Shown here: in pieces, positions 4,075-31,418 of the stretch
Layout: the number at the start of each line of letters is the position of its first letter
Position numbering within the stretch: the first letter of the stretch is position 1
IMG/VR virus record: IMGVR_UViG_3300045136_000374
Span: 1 to 31,500 of that record
DNA: 31,500 nt
Origin: a virus
Direction: 5' to 3' (one strand)
The notes under the pieces: model-generated
Databases searched by the model: none
Seen by the model: only the letters and a program-made list of their open reading frames with translations
Told to the model about the DNA's origin: nothing
Made by a program: the position numbers and the translations under genes

Positions 4075-4944
4075 ATGCCTCAAGCAATCGAGACCGCGTT
4101 CGTCCAGCAGTTCAAGACGAACGTCGAGCTGGTCATGCAGCAGAAGGAGGCGAGACTTCGGCCTCTCGTGACCACAGACTCCTATCAGGCGAAGTCGGCT
4201 TCGGTGGTCGAGCAGTTCGGCGTGATGGCCGCGCAGAAGGTCACGACCCGCAACGCTCCGACGCCTGTTCTGGACCTGGATCAGTCCAGGCGCTGGGTGT
4301 TCCCGACGACCTACGTTGCGTCCTCGACCGTGGACAGGTTCGACAAGCTGAAGATGGCGATCGATCCGACGAGCCCCTACGTGCAGGCGGCTGCAGCCGC
4401 GATGGCGAGGGCTCAGGATGCAGAGATCATGAGCGCCTTCTTCGGCACCGCAAAAGTCGGCGAGAACGGCACCGTCGACGAGGCCTTCGACACCACCTAC
4501 GAGGTCGCGTCCACCGTTGGGGGCGCCTCCAGCCTGAATGTGGCGAAGCTTCGGGCGGCGCTCAAGCTCCTCATGAAGGCGAACCAGGGGCAACTGAACG
4601 AGCCGGTCTACTGCGCGATCAGCGCCGAGGATCACGATGCGCTGCTCTCGGAAGTGCAGATCGCCTCGCGCGACTTCAATTCGCAGCCCGTGCTCGAGGA
4701 CGGCCGCATCCGGAGATTCCTGGGGATGGATTTCGTGGTGATCGAGTCGCTGCCCGTCTCTGGGAGCAACCGCTACATCCCGGTGTGGGTGCGCTCCGGC
4801 ATGCACCTCGGAGTCTGGGAAGATGTGAACACTCGGATCGACGAGCGTTCCGACATGAACTACGCAACCCAGATCTGGCTCTCCACCACTGTCGGGGCCA
4901 CTCGGCTCCAGCAGGGGAAGGTGGTCCGGATCGTGGTCGCGTAA
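4075..4944 (+). CDS. Major capsid protein
   Basis: This 289-residue protein has features of the podoviral capsid family often called Phage_capsid_2 (HK97 fold): an N-terminal FVQQFKTNVELVMQQKEARLRPLV helix, TRNAPTPVLDLDQSRRWVFPTTY, a DAEIMSAFFGTA segment, and a C-terminal YATQIWLSTTVGATRLQQGKVVRIVVA that matches the usual end of the fold. The ATG at 4075 is preferred over an in-frame TTG at 4060, because a GGGGG purine run precedes it at usual spacing and homologs typically start close to this point. It lies after scaffold and before head-decoration genes. Confidence 0.88.
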   Translation: MPQAIETAFVQQFKTNVELVMQQKEARLRPLVTTDSYQAKSASVVEQFGVMAAQKVTTRNAPTPVLDLDQSRRWVFPTTYVASSTVDRFDKLKMAIDPTSPYVQAAAAAMARAQDAEIMSAFFGTAKVGENGTVDEAFDTTYEVASTVGGASSLNVAKLRAALKLLMKANQGQLNEPVYCAISAEDHDALLSEVQIASRDFNSQPVLEDGRIRRFLGMDFVVIESLPVSGSNRYIPVWVRSGMHLGVWEDVNTRIDERSDMNYATQIWLSTTVGATRLQQGKVVRIVVA

Positions 4945-21065: not shown

Positions 21066-21280
21066 AGGTCAGAAAGACTGGAGGCATCCTCGCGTCGCGT
21101 CAAAGGGATGCTGTGATCCTGTCCGGACGGGGTGATCTCTATCTGAGCCACAGAGGAGATGCCGGGGAAGGTTCGACCATAGCCATGTCCTGTTCGCGCT
21201 CTGGGACGGTTAAATACCATACGATTCTCTCCCAGGGCATCCGCCACGATCTGGTCCACGTATTGCTGAAAACGTCATGA
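21062..21280 (+). CDS. Small protein, unknown function (72 aa)
   Basis: GAGAAGGAG lies eight bases before ATG 21062. Both ends overlap neighbours as ATGA, which favours a real gene. The 72-residue product opens MKVRKTGGILASRQRDAVILSGRGDLYL and ends SQGIRHDLVHVLLKTS. No family is recognised; its short beta strands suggest a compact soluble protein. A longer reading from 21041 would remove the good ribosome site and is not preferred. Confidence 0.55.
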   Translation: MKVRKTGGILASRQRDAVILSGRGDLYLSHRGDAGEGSTIAMSCSRSGTVKYHTILSQGIRHDLVHVLLKTS

Positions 21281-21609
21281 GAATCTCAAAGGACGAGATC
21301 GCCCGCACGGCGACTGCGCTGCGCAAACATCGCGGGAACCTCATGGCAGCCGCCCGCGAGCTCGGGGTTGCCCGCTCGACCTTAGTCTTCAGAATCCGCC
21401 GTTATGGGCTCGACCGTAAACTTCCCGGCGTGAAGCGGGCCCCCGGCATGAGCATCGAAGAGTTCCGGCGCGAGCATGATAGAGGCTACGCCATCCTTCT
21501 CAAGCTCAAAGGGGCGCTACGCGAGCTCGGCCAGAACTGCCTCTACGAGTCCGCTGGGCGGGCAAGCCCTATTACGGATTCGATCGGCGCGTTGCGATGG
21601 AGGCGGTGA
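21277..21609 (+). CDS. Fis-type helix-turn-helix protein, apparently frameshifted near its end
   Basis: Residues 6-46 (EIARTATALRKHRGNLMAAARELGVARSTLVFRIRRYGL) are a clear Fis-family (HTH_8) DNA-binding domain. Such domains occur alone in phages and at the end of sigma-54 activators. After about residue 88 the frame loses protein character, and the last ~20 residues look non-coding. Another frame from ~21555 to 21662 reads WAGKPYYGFDRRVAMEAVKRMGVEEQAF and ends in an ATGA overlap with the next gene. The intact protein therefore probably ends at 21662. No standard slippery heptamer is visible. Confidence 0.7.
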   Translation: MRISKDEIARTATALRKHRGNLMAAARELGVARSTLVFRIRRYGLDRKLPGVKRAPGMSIEEFRREHDRGYAILLKLKGALRELGQNCLYESAGRASPITDSIGALRWRR

Positions 21610-23723: not shown

Positions 23724-23914
23724 CGAGTTAGCTCCGGGCACCACTCCGGGTGTCCGTTCTCCAACGCACCGCACGCGCTCATCGTCTCGCTGCACGGCGC
23801 GCCCCAGAACTCGCCTCTCGGCTCGCGCCATGTCCGAAGATACTGGCAGTCGAGACAGGCTCGACCGTCCTGAAAAATCGCCTCGACAGTCTTTTCGATC
23901 TTGGGTTGGTTCAT
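23720..23914 (-). CDS. Small Cys-rich, probably zinc-binding protein (64 aa)
   Basis: ATG 23914 overlaps the stop of the upstream Mom-like gene (ATGA), so this start is preferred over a GTG five codons earlier. Five cysteines are arranged as CLDC, GAPC, SAC and EWC within ~40 residues, suggesting a metal-bound small domain. No family is recognised. Both ends are coupled to neighbours, so it is translated as part of the operon. Confidence 0.65.
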   Translation of the reverse strand: MNQPKIEKTVEAIFQDGRACLDCQYLRTWREPRGEFWGAPCSETMSACGALENGHPEWCPELTR

Positions 23915-24465
23915 ACGTCTCGTCCCCACCTCACCTTCGGCCCCGGTGCCTGAGCGACTCTTCTGTCCCGTTTACTTCGAACCCAGTTGCCACTCCTATT
24001 TACAGCCTCCGCTTTCCAGCCGGCTGCAGCGTAGATAGTGCCTCGATGAACATCGCAGTCCTGGTAGCTGATTAGGTGCACAATGTGCGGCCATTTATTT
24101 TTGATCAGTCTCGCCATTACGGCGAGCATTCTGCTTGCTGTGTTCTTCGGGGCATCCGAAGAGATGGCGAATCGCCTCAACTCAAGCCAATTTCGACCAT
24201 TTAAAAGCCGAGCAATAGGACTCGTCCAGATAGCCACGGCGTAATAGCGGCCGTCGTATTCCGCACCGTAACAGACCAAGTGCCTTGTTCGTTGCAGATT
24301 GTTTTTAGACGCATATGGCAGCCTTGAATGCCAAAGCTCGTTAAGTTGTATCGCCCGCTCCAGAGATATTTCACCGATGTTGAGTTGGAGCGGCGATTCT
24401 GGACTAGACCAACCTGTTCCATCATGAAAAAGCGGATACGCAGCTCTCGTTGTATCGTTACTCAC
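23911..24465 (-). CDS. Mom-like GNAT-fold protein (candidate DNA modification)
   Basis: This 184-residue protein carries LELRRFAISSDAPKNTASRMLAVMARLI and LISYQDCDVHRGTIYAAAGWK. This resembles the acetyltransferase-like core of phage Mu Mom and related proteins (RM-I--DAP-N--S-ML ... ISY-D---H-GTIY-A-GW). Mom changes adenine to N6-methylcarbamoyl-adenine and blocks restriction. The gene is clearly lower in GC than its neighbours, a sign of recent gain. It starts at GTG 24465 with only a weak ribosome site. A general acetyltransferase of unknown target is the alternative. Confidence 0.65.
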   Translation of the reverse strand: MSNDTTRAAYPLFHDGTGWSSPESPLQLNIGEISLERAIQLNELWHSRLPYASKNNLQRTRHLVCYGAEYDGRYYAVAIWTSPIARLLNGRNWLELRRFAISSDAPKNTASRMLAVMARLIKNKWPHIVHLISYQDCDVHRGTIYAAAGWKAEAVNRSGNWVRSKRDRRVAQAPGPKVRWGRDV

Positions 24466-27685: not shown

Positions 27686-27706
27686 TGTTGACAGATGTCA
27701 TACGAT
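27678..27706 (+). promoter_or_regulatory. Promoter of the Cro-like/replication operon
   Basis: The -35 TTGCGC (27678-27683) and the -10 TACGAT (27701-27706, four of six matches) are spaced by 17 bases. Start of transcription would be near 27713, giving a leader of about 17 bases to ATG 27730. The -10 lies between the first two operator half-sites. Confidence 0.5.
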
Positions 27707-27729
27707 ATTGTCAAGGAGGATGTTGACAA
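27685..27729. promoter_or_regulatory. Operator: three TTGACA half-sites at the divergent promoters
   Basis: ATGTTGACA occurs at 27685-27693 and again at 27720-27728. Between them TGTCAA (27709-27714) is the inverted copy. The first and second form an inverted repeat around the plus-strand -10; the third lies between the AAGGAGG ribosome site and ATG of the Cro-like gene. This is the expected place for self-repression by that protein. Confidence 0.6.
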
Positions 27730-27927
27730 ATGCCAAGTCCTGACCCTGCCTTGGACGTCCACGCTGTGGTGAAGAAGCTCGGTGGCACGACCAGGGCCGC
27801 TGTCTTCTTCGAGGTCACGCCTTCTGCGGTGAGCAAATGGAAGCTACGCGGCAGACTCCCGAAGGCCAAGGCTATGTATCTCCGCGTTGCCAAGCCGGAG
27901 GTCTATGCCGCTGCAATGAAGGGGTAA
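27730..27927 (+). CDS. Cro/YdaS-like helix-turn-helix repressor (65 aa)
   Basis: The 65-residue length and sequence HAVVKKLGGTTRAAVFFEVTPSAVSKWKLRGRLPKAKAMYLRVAKPEVYA are typical of Cro-like DNA-binding proteins; the helix-turn-helix spans residues ~19-40. AAGGAGG lies nine bases upstream of ATG. It is encoded next to a divergent promoter pair with TTGACA repeats, its likely binding sites. It probably controls both early operons. No CI-like partner is visible in the window, so a lysogeny switch is not shown. Confidence 0.85.
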   Translation: MPSPDPALDVHAVVKKLGGTTRAAVFFEVTPSAVSKWKLRGRLPKAKAMYLRVAKPEVYAAAMKG

Positions 27928-27931
27928 GGCC

Positions 27932-28555
27932 ATGGTGACCGAGATTCTGGCAGCCCGCGTTCTAAGGTCCCAGAAGGTCGAGGCCATCGGCTCGTTCGAG
28001 GCCGAGCGCCTCTACTACAGGATGCTCTTGGCTGCTGACCAATTGGGGAGGCTCAAGGGCGGCACCAAAGCGATCGCTGCGGCTTGCTTCCCGAGCAAGG
28101 CTCGGGAGATCGAGACCGAGTGTGAGCTTTGGCTCGCCGAGCTCATCCGCGCGGGACTAGTCACGGTCCGCGAGGGCGAACGGGGAACGCAAGTCCAGAT
28201 CGTGGACCCTCTTGCGCGGCATGATGCGGCTCAGGCTGTGCTGCCCATCCCGGAGATGGCTTCGCCGCCCAAGGCGAAGGTGGCCTCACCTCTTCAAGAG
28301 GCCGCGCGCCGGGTGCTCGCGTTCCTGAACGAGAAGGCGGGGCGGGCGTTCGAACCCTGCGAGCCCAACATCGGGTTGATCATCGCTCGCATCAAGGAAG
28401 GTGCCACGGAAGAGAAGCTCCGGCAGGTGGTGGTGAGGAAGTGCCGCGAGTGGAAGGGCACCGAGATGGAGAAATACCTCCGCCCCAAGACGCTGTTTAA
28501 CCGCACGAACTTCGCCCAGTATGTCGGCGAGCTCGTGCCGAGACTGGAGGACTGA
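27932..28555 (+). CDS. Replication protein with Phg_2220-type C-terminal domain (207 aa)
   Basis: Residues ~15-95 form a helical, winged-helix-like region (EAERLYYRMLLAADQLGRLKGGTKAIAAACFPSKAREIETECELWLAELIRAGLV). The C-terminal ~85 residues (VLAFLNEKAGRAFEPCEPNIGLIIARIKEGATEEKLRQVVVRKC ... LRPKTLFNRTNFAQYVGEL) are the conserved phage replisome domain Phg_2220_C, linked to DnaD-like and replication-initiation proteins. It probably opens or marks the phage origin. It starts four bases after the Cro-like gene with an AAGGGG ribosome site. Confidence 0.82.
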   Translation: MVTEILAARVLRSQKVEAIGSFEAERLYYRMLLAADQLGRLKGGTKAIAAACFPSKAREIETECELWLAELIRAGLVTVREGERGTQVQIVDPLARHDAAQAVLPIPEMASPPKAKVASPLQEAARRVLAFLNEKAGRAFEPCEPNIGLIIARIKEGATEEKLRQVVVRKCREWKGTEMEKYLRPKTLFNRTNFAQYVGELVPRLED

Positions 28556-29128: not shown

Positions 29129-29551
29129 ATGATCGCCTTCACCATCCTCGGTGAGCCCGCCTCCAAAGCGAACTCCCGCCGGCTGGTCTACGTGCGAGGG
29201 CGCAAGAAGATACGCGCGCTTTTCATCCGGTCGAAGAAGGCGCTCAAGTATGTGGAAGACGCGAAGCGCCAGATTCCTGGATGGGCAAAAAGGAACTGGC
29301 AATTTCCTGTCAAGGTGACGATCAGAATCTTCTACGCGACCGAGCGGCCGGACCTGGATGAGTCCTTGATTCTGGACGTGCTGCAATCCCGCTACAAGGG
29401 AAGCGGGAAGAATCGCGTGCTCGTCGAGCGAGGCGTCTACGCGAACGACAGGCTCGTTCGCGAGAAGCACATCTACCACGCCATAGACCGAGAGCGGCCT
29501 AGGGCAGAGATTGCTGTCGAGCCGCTCTTTCCAGCAGCCACTCCGCAATAA
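29129..29551 (+). CDS. RusA-family Holliday junction resolvase (140 aa)
   Basis: This is a RusA fold. FTILGEPASKANSRRLVY is the opening beta-loop, RPDLDESLILDVLQ (Asp75, Asp77) matches the metal-binding acid pair, and GVYANDRLVREKH (Asp107) matches the third acid. The end (AIDRERPRAEIAVEPL) is also typical. RusA enzymes cut four-way junctions during phage recombination or before packaging. GGAGGAGACG precedes ATG 29129. Its last 53 bases overlap a convergent small gene. Confidence 0.88.
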   Translation: MIAFTILGEPASKANSRRLVYVRGRKKIRALFIRSKKALKYVEDAKRQIPGWAKRNWQFPVKVTIRIFYATERPDLDESLILDVLQSRYKGSGKNRVLVERGVYANDRLVREKHIYHAIDRERPRAEIAVEPLFPAATPQ

Positions 29552-29672
29552 TCCTTCCGGCCTCTTCTGGGGTCACCGAAAATTCCTTCATGAATTCCTC
29601 GAACACCTCCGCGGTCGAGAGGTGCCGGGTGGGGGCAAGGTCGTCGAGCCAGTCTTTTTGCTCGGGCGTCAT
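29499..29672 (-). CDS. Small acidic helical protein, convergent with RusA (57 aa)
   Basis: AGGAGG lies seven bases before ATG 29672 on the minus strand, which decides this start over longer readings to 29690 or 29744. The product (TPEQKDWLDDLAPTRHLSTAEVFEEFMKEFSVTPEEAGRIIAEWLLERAARQQ) is acidic and helical, and looks like a genuine folded protein. It is alone on this strand here, and its 3' end runs through the RusA gene end. Its promoter would lie in the palindrome region. No family is recognised. Confidence 0.6.
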   Translation of the reverse strand: MTPEQKDWLDDLAPTRHLSTAEVFEEFMKEFSVTPEEAGRIIAEWLLERAARQQSLP

Positions 29673-29721
29673 GCTATGTCCTCCTATCATCGCGACTAGA
29701 GTCCGGGTCCGGGTCCGCCCC

Positions 29722-29831
29722 CGCGTGAGTGAGCGCTCACTCACGCGCGGGTTAGCGAGCGCTTACTCCGAAGCGAAGTGAGCTCACATGGAGACATGCA
29801 AGTTCCGTGCCTGGAAGGTAAGTGAGCTTAC
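29722..29831. promoter_or_regulatory. Palindrome cluster in a 311-base non-coding control region
   Basis: A perfect 26-bp palindrome spans 29722-29747 (half-site CGCGTGAGTGAGC). Imperfect copies follow: AGCGAGC/GCTTACT centred at 29760, GTGAGCTCAC at 29779-29788, and GTAAG-TGAG-CTTAC at 29818-29831. All share the core AGTGAGC or GCTYAC. They look like binding sites of one dimeric regulator. The region 29673-29983 holds no gene that I can support. Confidence 0.7.
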
Positions 29832-29855
29832 TCAGGGCCTTAGCGGCGGCCGAGC

Positions 29856-29930
29856 TGACGCGGTACGTCAGGATGTGACGCTCTACGTCAGAATGTGACG
29901 CTCAGCGTCAGCACGTGTGGGCGTAAGTCA
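29856..29930. promoter_or_regulatory. Three TGACG-N5-CGTCA dyads with exact 20-bp spacing
   Basis: Perfect inverted repeats TGACG-N5-CGTCA occur at 29856-29870, 29876-29890 and 29896-29910; a decayed fourth (ending AAGTCA) lies at 29916-29930. The 20-bp period is two helix turns, placing all sites on one face of the DNA. Such iterated sites are used by replication initiators (iterons) or by activators and repressors binding cooperatively. Confidence 0.75.
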
Positions 29931-29942
29931 TTGATCCGCCGT

Positions 29943-29958
29943 TGGCACGGATCGTGCT
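29943..29958 (+). promoter_or_regulatory. Sigma-54-like promoter before the AAA+ operon
   Basis: TGGCACGGATCGTGCT matches the sigma-54 consensus TGGCAYRNNNNTTGCW with one mismatch; GG (29944-29945) and GC (29956-29957) are exactly ten bases apart. The transcript would begin near 29969, just ahead of AAGGAGG and ATG 29984. The iterated dyads upstream are in the place of an activator site. A lone motif can be chance. Confidence 0.45.
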
Positions 29959-29983
29959 ACGCTGGTGCCGAAAGGAGGACATC

Positions 29984-31015
29984 ATGGACCCCATCCGCTT
30001 TCTGCGCGCGCTTCACGCGGCGCCTTCGCAAGAGATCAGCCCCTGTTTGGTGGGGCCTACCGGGGCCGGGAAAACGGCCCGTGTCTCGGCTTACGCCGAG
30101 CAGGCCGGGCTACCGGTGCGGCGTATCCTACTGGGCTCGATGCTACCCGAGGACGTGCTCGGGCTGCCCCGCGTTGAGCGGGGGCGAACCGTCTGGTCGC
30201 TGCCAGATTGGGCCGCGGAGGCGCGCGAGCGGCCCGTGCTGCTGTTCCTCGACGAGCTCGATAAGGCTCGTCCGGAGTGTCACGCCGCGGCACTCACTTT
30301 GCTCGCCGAGCACCGAGTGCGCGACGTGGTGCTGCACCAGCAGACGCGCATCGTCTGCGCCATGCAGCCCGTCGAGCCCCGCGAGTGGACGGCAGACGAG
30401 ACCGGCCGCGCCCTCGCCGCGCGGCTGTGCTTCCTCCCGGTCGGCTACGACTGGGCATGGACCGGCCAGGCGACCGGTCTCGACCTCGCCGGGATGCCGC
30501 GTCCGGAGATCGCGCTTCCCGTCCTCGAACCTTGCCCGCGAACCGTCACGTGGTGGGTGTCGCTTTGCCGGGCGCATCCCGATGATCGCGAGCTCCATGA
30601 GACCGCCGCACGCGGTCTGTGGCCGGCCGACTACGCGGAGGACCTTATCCGCCGGCTGCGCGAAGGTCCGGCGCTCAAGCGCGATGCCGTGCTGCGGCTT
30701 CTCGCGCGGGAGCCGGAGCGGGTGCGCGAGCTCACCGTGCCCGAGCTCGTCGAGCTCGCCCCTGACATCATGCACCACTGCCCGCCGGCGACCTGGCGGG
30801 AGATGCTGGTGCGCGTCTGGACCGTGGGCTCTGAGGACGAGGCCTCGGCCCTCCTGCGCCGTGCATACGACGAGCTCGCGTCTCGCGTGGACGCGGCGGG
30901 CGGCGAGCTCGACATCGCGGCCGGGGCATCTGAGGACGAGGTCGCGCAGGCGATCAGTGATGCGTGCCGCGCGATCGCCGAGGAGTGGCAGGCGCGCGCG
31001 AAGGGGCGGTCATGA
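29984..31015 (+). CDS. MoxR-like AAA+ ATPase (343 aa)
   Basis: ATG 29984 follows AAAGGAGG. Walker A is GPTGAGKT (residues 24-31), then LLGSMLPEDVLGLP. Walker B is LLFLDE (86-91), and RALAARLCFLPVGYDW holds a candidate arginine finger (Arg147), the MoxR-type order. Sensor 1 reads VCAMQP, with Gln in place of the usual Asn. The C-terminal ~170 residues are helical with no family seen. MoxR ATPases act as chaperones that insert cofactors or remodel proteins, usually with a VWA partner; none is visible up to the window end. Codon use lacks the AGG/AGA arginine typical upstream. Confidence 0.8.
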   Translation: MDPIRFLRALHAAPSQEISPCLVGPTGAGKTARVSAYAEQAGLPVRRILLGSMLPEDVLGLPRVERGRTVWSLPDWAAEARERPVLLFLDELDKARPECHAAALTLLAEHRVRDVVLHQQTRIVCAMQPVEPREWTADETGRALAARLCFLPVGYDWAWTGQATGLDLAGMPRPEIALPVLEPCPRTVTWWVSLCRAHPDDRELHETAARGLWPADYAEDLIRRLREGPALKRDAVLRLLAREPERVRELTVPELVELAPDIMHHCPPATWREMLVRVWTVGSEDEASALLRRAYDELASRVDAAGGELDIAAGASEDEVAQAISDACRAIAEEWQARAKGRS

Positions 31016-31215
31016 TCGTCTCGCGCGGCGCCGTGCACTCGGGTGCATACATCTGGGGGCGGCGCGTCTGGCTGAAGTATGAAGCTATCGTGCTAGACGT
31101 GTGCGGGCCGGTGCGCGCGTGGCTCGTCTGGCGCAATGGGGCTGAGCAGGAAGGTGAGCTTATTTATCTCGGCATCATGCCGCGCAGCGTCTCAGAGCGC
31201 GTGGTGCAGTCATGA
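31012..31215 (+). CDS. Small protein coupled to the AAA+ gene (67 aa)
   Basis: The gene starts in an ATGA overlap with the AAA+ stop and ends in an ATGA overlap with the next gene. The product (YIWGRRVWLKYEAIVLDVCGPVRAWLVWRNGAEQEGELIYLGIM) looks like a small beta barrel. It has no recognised family. The tight coupling suggests it works with the ATPase or in the same early programme. Confidence 0.6.
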   Translation: MIVSRGAVHSGAYIWGRRVWLKYEAIVLDVCGPVRAWLVWRNGAEQEGELIYLGIMPRSVSERVVQS

Positions 31216-31418
31216 TCGTGCGTCGTGTAGAGCGGCATCTCGCCAACCATCGCGGGGAGTGCGTGCGGATCGGCGCCTTCGGCATCTGGAGCGATTCCGA
31301 CTACCGCGCGCGCGTCTGGCGTCTGTTCCGCGGCGACACCAGACCGGTGCCTGATGTGTCGTCGCGTCTGCCCGAGATCAAGGCGCGCTCGGTGGTATCG
31401 CAGAGCCGCAGGCCGTGA
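31212..31418 (+). CDS. Small basic protein (68 aa)
   Basis: This gene is coupled to the previous one by ATGA and shares its first four residues (MIVR/MIVS). The product (VERHLANHRGECVRIGAFGIWSDSDYRARVWRLFRG) is basic. No family is recognised. It is the third gene of the operon beginning at the sigma-54-like promoter. Confidence 0.55.
   Translation: MIVRRVERHLANHRGECVRIGAFGIWSDSDYRARVWRLFRGDTRPVPDVSSRLPEIKARSVVSQSRRP

Follow-up and report, generated by a model that had tools for sequence, protein, structure and literature searches.

An array of phased TGACG-N5-CGTCA dyads in a phage genome fragment probably serves as the upstream activating sequence (UAS) of a bidirectional sigma54 promoter region, which would be read by an enhancer-binding protein (EBP) of the host, most likely PilR. 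The DNA analysed is a 31.5-kb viral contig, referred to throughout as the window, and covers no more than part of the genome of the phage. An earlier note on this DNA had proposed that the repeats might be either an origin of replication or a control switch for the AAA+ operon that follows them. The second of these proposals is supported and can be sharpened, in that the array lies between divergent sigma54 elements and matches the PilR-type enhancer of pilA, the pilin gene.

The three perfect dyads at 29856-29910, with a start-to-start distance of exactly 20 bp, were confirmed as described in that note, and they are the only perfect dyads in the whole record. Half-sites fall every 10 bp along the array and alternate in orientation. 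Among 300 first-order Markov sequences as long as the record, perfect dyads occurred at a mean of 0.05 per sequence, and phased pairs and triples did not occur at all (0 of each). The decayed fourth repeat is present as a partial match (Table 1), and it overlaps a 13-mer resembling a binding site for IHF; it is probably no fourth site for PilR.

Sigma54 elements were scored on both strands as a GG-N10-GC -24/-12 element near TGGCAC-N5-TTGCW, with a maximum score of 26.5. The two best scores of the 31.5 kb flank the array, and each element is directed away from it, whereas in Markov controls the expected number of scores of 23.5 or more within 60 bp on one side is 0.0004. The rightward element begins 31 bp past the last dyad, with a predicted start site near 29968, and the leftward element lies 42 bp beyond dyad 1, with a predicted start site near 29787. 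The window thus combines, as putative elements recognised by their sequence, the -24/-12 motif and the upstream activating sites of a sigma54-type promoter. A search of 29400-30100 for sigma70-like promoters found none. Sites for IHF between enhancer and promoter are common at sigma54 promoters, although not obligatory, and the IHF-like site of the window lies directly upstream of the rightward -24.

The genes downstream of the two elements are the AAA+ gene and a divergent 57-aa ORF rather than a pilin gene. Around its ribosome site, the 57-aa ORF repeats the sequence context of the AAA+ gene in inverted form, and this ORF is probably the target of the leftward promoter. A second set of palindromes extends across the leftward promoter and its leader; these may be operators through which a phage repressor would override the host signal on the leftward side.

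Table 1. Coordinates of the array and of the elements and genes around it
Feature	Position	Strand	Remarks
Enhancer dyad 1 (PilR-type UAS), TGACGCGGTACGTCA	29856-29870	no strand	exact match; motif also found between pilR and pilA in hosts
Enhancer dyad 2, TGACGCTCTACGTCA	29876-29890	no strand	exact match; dyad 1 + 20 bp
Enhancer dyad 3, TGACGCTCAGCGTCA	29896-29910	no strand	exact match; dyad 2 + 20 bp
Decayed fourth dyad, TGTGGGCGTAAGTCA	29916-29930	no strand	7 of 10 positions matched; overlaps IHF-like site
IHF-like site, GATCAATGACTTA	29924-29936	-	consensus WATCAANNNNTTR, first base the sole mismatch
Sigma54 element, TTGGCACG-GATC-GTGCT (-24 GG / -12 GC)	29942-29958	+	toward AAA+ operon; score 25.5 of 26.5, top of window
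Divergent sigma54 element, CAGGCACGGAACTTGCA	29797-29813	-	score 23.5, second in window
Shine-Dalgarno of AAA+ gene, AAAGGAGG	29971-29978	+	strong
AAA+ (AAA_5/MoxR-like) ATPase gene, 343 aa	29984-31015	+	leads rightward operon; Pfam AAA_5 5e-8; PHROG 1297 3e-22
67-aa ORF	31012-31215	+	overlaps 3' end of AAA+ gene; no family match
68-aa ORF	31212-31418	+	no family match
57-aa divergent ORF (MTPEQKDWLDDLAPTRHLSTAEVFEEFMKEF...)	29499-29672	-	lies in ORF 29499-29744; Shine-Dalgarno AGGAGG 29685-29680
Second palindrome set, four related members	29725-29833	no strand	across leftward promoter and leader; window's best matches here
Palindrome GTGAGTGAGCGCTCACTCAC	29725-29744
Palindrome GTTAGCGAGCGCTTACTC	29751-29768
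Palindrome AGTGAGCTCACA	29777-29788
Palindrome GTAAGTGAGCTTACTC	29818-29833

The case for PilR comes from bacterial chromosomes. When two phased dyads were looked for in about 85,000 bacterial and archaeal genomes (257 Gb), they were present at 18 loci, where fewer than one is expected by chance (our own estimate from the specified bases). In about half of the 18, the dyads sit at the 3' end of a gene encoding a PilR-type C-terminus (...ALRYRMEKLG or similar), shortly before a sigma54 motif and a pilin gene, or both. At one such locus, L011, pilS and pilR are followed by the array, a sigma54 element and pilA. Luteibacter jiangsuensis and Pseudoxanthomonas sp. PXM01, with loci L023 and L024, are examples of hosts that have dyads at pilA. 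Domain searches identified PilS by 6TM_PilS, HisKA and HATPase domains and PilR by receiver, sigma54-activation and HTH_8 domains, and the pilins at the host loci were confirmed by a Pilin/N_methyl domain.

The association was also found in a test that is independent of the motif. In 85 gammaproteobacterial genomes pilS was located through the 6TM_PilS family, the DNA behind 40 of these genes was taken, and the 26 loci with a recognisably complete pilR, picked through PilS only, were scored. The 350 bp that follow pilR (9,160 bp in all) contain three perfect dyads and six with one mismatch, a strong enrichment, whereas a reversed control pattern gave neither perfect nor one-mismatch matches in the same DNA. 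The pilR coding sequence (38,445 bp) holds no perfect dyad and two with one mismatch. A pilin-like start is present downstream at 17 of the 26 loci. In light of this enrichment behind independently chosen pilR genes, TGACG-N5-CGTCA is judged to be a pilA enhancer motif in at least part of the Gammaproteobacteria, with PilR as its obvious reader, and host PilR becomes the likely activator of the phage promoters. The array sequence of the window is accordingly one that is common to pilA promoters adjoining pilS-pilR, as expected of the PilR regulon, PilR binding itself being predicted. That PilR of this phage's own host would read the motif is extrapolated from other hosts.

The spacing differs between the two settings. 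At most of the host pilA promoters found, 85-143 bp separate the dyads from the -24, a greater distance than in phages, instead of 31-43 bp; the pilA promoter on contig L033 alone has 42 bp. In keeping with the greater distance at host pilA, a Gammaproteobacteria-wide search for a dyad 15-45 bp from a sigma54 element gave 0 of 369.

The same arrangement recurs in viral contigs. A scan keyed on the dyad together with TTGGCACG had given many chance-looking matches, and the key was therefore changed to phased half-sites, with sigma54 left out of the key and scored afterwards. Phased half-sites were found in 46 contigs, and a sigma54 score of at least 23.5 lies within 110 bp of the array on 17 of the 92 sides, versus 0.7% at positions drawn at random from these contigs. 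These 17 sides represent 16 contigs in about 10 unrelated groups, which in all-against-all comparison have few genes in common beyond scattered weak matches; contigs inside one viral group are not independent, and the viral and host sets are both partly shaped by the search patterns. In eight contigs (L004, L006, L028, L126, L130, L144, L073 and L074) the array separates leftward packaging-side genes from rightward small, mostly uncharacterised genes, the terminase having been recognised by family match in L006 and L028 and the other contigs having been judged by size, position or similarity. L006 resembles the window in having sigma54 elements on both sides of its array.

The geometry of these promoters is also shared. 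The nearest dyad is often 38-43 bp from the -24: 43 bp in L004 and L006, 42 bp in L074 and on the leftward side of the window, 41 bp in L073, 40 bp in L077 and L082, 39 bp in L152, 38 bp in L028 and 42 bp at the pilA promoter of L033. Other distances are the 31 bp on the rightward side of the window and 29, 51 and 61-83 bp in further contigs. IHF-consensus sites of the AATCAATGACTTA type occur 16-18 bp before the -24 in L004, L006, L028, L152 and the L033 pilA promoter; the window also has its IHF-like site there, with the 13-mer in the opposite orientation to the sites of those five.

Among the viral contigs examined, a pilin is driven by an array promoter in L033 only. This viral-collection contig has a probable terminase gene, and its pilin gene stands under a PilR-type promoter at the contig end; it is either a prophage border or a phage that carries pilA. 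No convincing sigma54 motif was found near the phased arrays of L005, L007, L008 and L009, and another protein may thus use the same site there. L008 has six consecutive perfect dyads with a 20-bp period at 4755-4869, with a TTGACC...CATAAT-like promoter further downstream, and more dyads, partly out of phase, at 1204-1356.

Together, these comparisons suggest a pathway in which the phage would borrow the host's own control of pilin. Sigma54 promoters do not fire without a signal-sensing activator. PilS would phosphorylate host PilR, dimers of which would occupy the three dyads, all on the same side of the helix, and assemble there; with the DNA bent by IHF, PilR would then touch RNA polymerase-sigma54 at the rightward (+) and probably also at the leftward (-) element. 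ATP hydrolysis by PilR would open the promoters, resulting in expression of the AAA+ operon in one direction and the 57-aa ORF in the other. Through its pilA-like promoter the phage operon would be tied to the state of PilS/PilR, and would be on while the host is geared to pilin production. From the sequence comparisons we infer PilR as the binder, dependence on sigma54, activity of the leftward promoter and a benefit to the phage.

The earlier note knew of no named phage regulator with a TGACG-N5-CGTCA site, which stands, and the relevant regulator appears to be the host's. It might nevertheless be an EBP other than PilR that shares its site, either of the host NtrC family or encoded in the missing part of the phage genome, of which the window covers only a fragment. 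A pattern in Xanthomonadales bears on this point. At loci L084-L104 a conserved dyad precedes a sigma54 element by 60 bp, usually with a CRP/Clp-like TGTGAT...ATCACA palindrome between the two, and downstream comes a small gene (MDxxxDFQPVYxxHDLLIELG...) that adjoins mnmG; the dyad-sigma54 pattern is present in 26 of 398 genomes, and a reversed control gave none. With a single dyad conserved before a sigma54 motif at this non-pilin gene, the motif seems to serve other sigma54 genes, and PilR may not be its only reader or pilA not its only target. Another EBP is nonetheless considered unlikely, given the specific enrichment of the motif right after pilR and before pilA. As to an activator of the phage's own, a sigma54-activation domain was not found among the window proteins searched, and the AAA+ protein is of the AAA_5/MoxR-like kind. 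A regulator of another type is encoded in the window, where a Cro-like protein (27730-27927) and a Fis-like HTH_8 protein (21277-21609) could act on the dyads as operators of the AAA+ operon with no part for PilR. The HTH_8 domain belongs to the same broad type as the DNA-binding domain of PilR, and the nearby palindromes at 29725-29833 do resemble phage operators. However, the same dyads occur at host pilR-pilA junctions where there is no phage, and the sigma54 elements would be left unexplained, which makes such operators improbable. The Fis-like protein was rejected as the binder: its similarity to PilR in HTH_8 is only generic, and the recognition-helix region differs (ARSTLVFRIRRYGL versus TFRALRYRLKKLG in PilR).

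Equally improbable is a decoy, whereby the array would titrate PilR off pilA in the course of phage replication, reducing piliation and excluding superinfection, with transcription secondary. Several dyads are present per genome, and a phage attack on the same system is known in PIT4, which acts on PilS and has been interpreted as a means of infection exclusion (PMC10714779). Three dyads per genome are a small sink, however, and activation is indicated by the -24/-12 elements, which are well formed and stand at set distances to either side, by the IHF-like site and by the ribosome sites right downstream. Least probable is the iteron-type origin of replication raised in the earlier note. A replication-initiation-type gene (27932-28555; Phg_2220_C) does lie upstream of the phased repeats, at a distance of about 1.3 kb, but an iteron origin is marked by direct iterons, an AT-rich unwinding region and usually DnaA boxes, whereas here the repeats are palindromes in DNA of 57-66% G+C that has no AT-rich stretch, and DnaA boxes are absent nearby. 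The skew, one of the checks suggested for an origin, does not switch at the array.

The virion and lysis genes recognised in the record encode a head-tail adaptor/portal, a major head protein, tail proteins, internal virion proteins and a spanin, and the other recognised products are a RecE-like exonuclease, a Mom-like protein, a P22-Cro-like protein, a replication-initiation-type protein and a RusA-like resolvase. Its portal protein is closest to those of an environmental podovirus (49%) and of Stenotrophomonas phages (39%). The Mom-like DNA modification protein (23911-24465, -) suggests that the phage DNA is modified. The Fis-type HTH_8 protein (110 aa, + strand) is encoded in the region after the spanin gene and has no PHROG match. 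Directly before the Cro-like gene, at 27690-27732, lies a TTGACAGATGTCATACGATATTGTCAA palindrome, likely a self-operator.

Searches with the AAA+ protein found no relatives in viral contigs and only distant ATPases in cultured phages, and searches with the RecE, portal and initiator proteins gave distant relatives only, the array being absent from those checked. It is likewise absent from the cultured phage MW202898 and, in Xanthomonas phage AhaSv, from an operon with a gene common to L004 and L006; Stenotrophomonas phage AXL3 has no perfect dyad.

The component parts of the proposed region, namely sigma54 promoters, PilR enhancers and IHF, are already known. In the literature searched, in which subscription journals were sparsely covered, no description was found of a phage operon under PilR/sigma54 control, nor of the repeated occurrence of such control in unrelated phages. 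Phages appear to have wired operons repeatedly to the host pilus regulon. We lean, with some reserve, toward the broader view that among tailed phages of Gammaproteobacteria many unrelated ones have, each independently, put operons under copies of the enhancer-promoter of host pilin, and that host PilS/PilR with RpoN, and hence a piliation state that often exposes the receptor, would time their expression. Because a sigma54 promoter needs a signal-sensing activator, a phage that uses one hands the decision to a host sensor. If that sensor is PilS/PilR, the phage would read whether the cell makes type IV pili, which are a common phage receptor. Such control would connect the state of the receptor with the control of phage genes in a way that can be tested, and would also give a sequence signature by which hosts of uncultured phages could be predicted.

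Among known systems, iteron origins and cooperative phage operators share with the window their phased short repeats, but the dyads of the window are flanked by sigma54 elements and lack origin features. In commensal Neisseria, pilE depends on RpoN, IHF and the activator Npa, and the published order is UAS, IHF site, RpoN site (PMC6528607). The parts of the window come in the same order, and the activation proposed here follows the description given for pilE, which differs in being a chromosomal pilin gene with Npa as its activator. The closer parallel is with the PilS/PilR-sigma54 promoters of pilA in Pseudomonas, Xylella, Kingella and others; in P. aeruginosa PilA is sensed by PilS, and pilA is activated by PilR with sigma54 (PMC10714779). 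These promoters resemble the window in their PilR-type dyads and -24/-12 element, and that of L033 also in its dyad distance and IHF-like site. They differ in that the window has phage genes rather than pilin to drive, three dyads that are usually nearer the promoter, and promoters on both sides. Finally, PIT4 of Pseudomonas phage LSL4, which binds histidine kinases (PMC10714779), represents another case of a phage engaging PilS/PilR, as is proposed here. The two differ in the direction of the contact: with PIT4 a phage protein strikes the kinases, whereas in the window phage DNA is apparently read by the response regulator.
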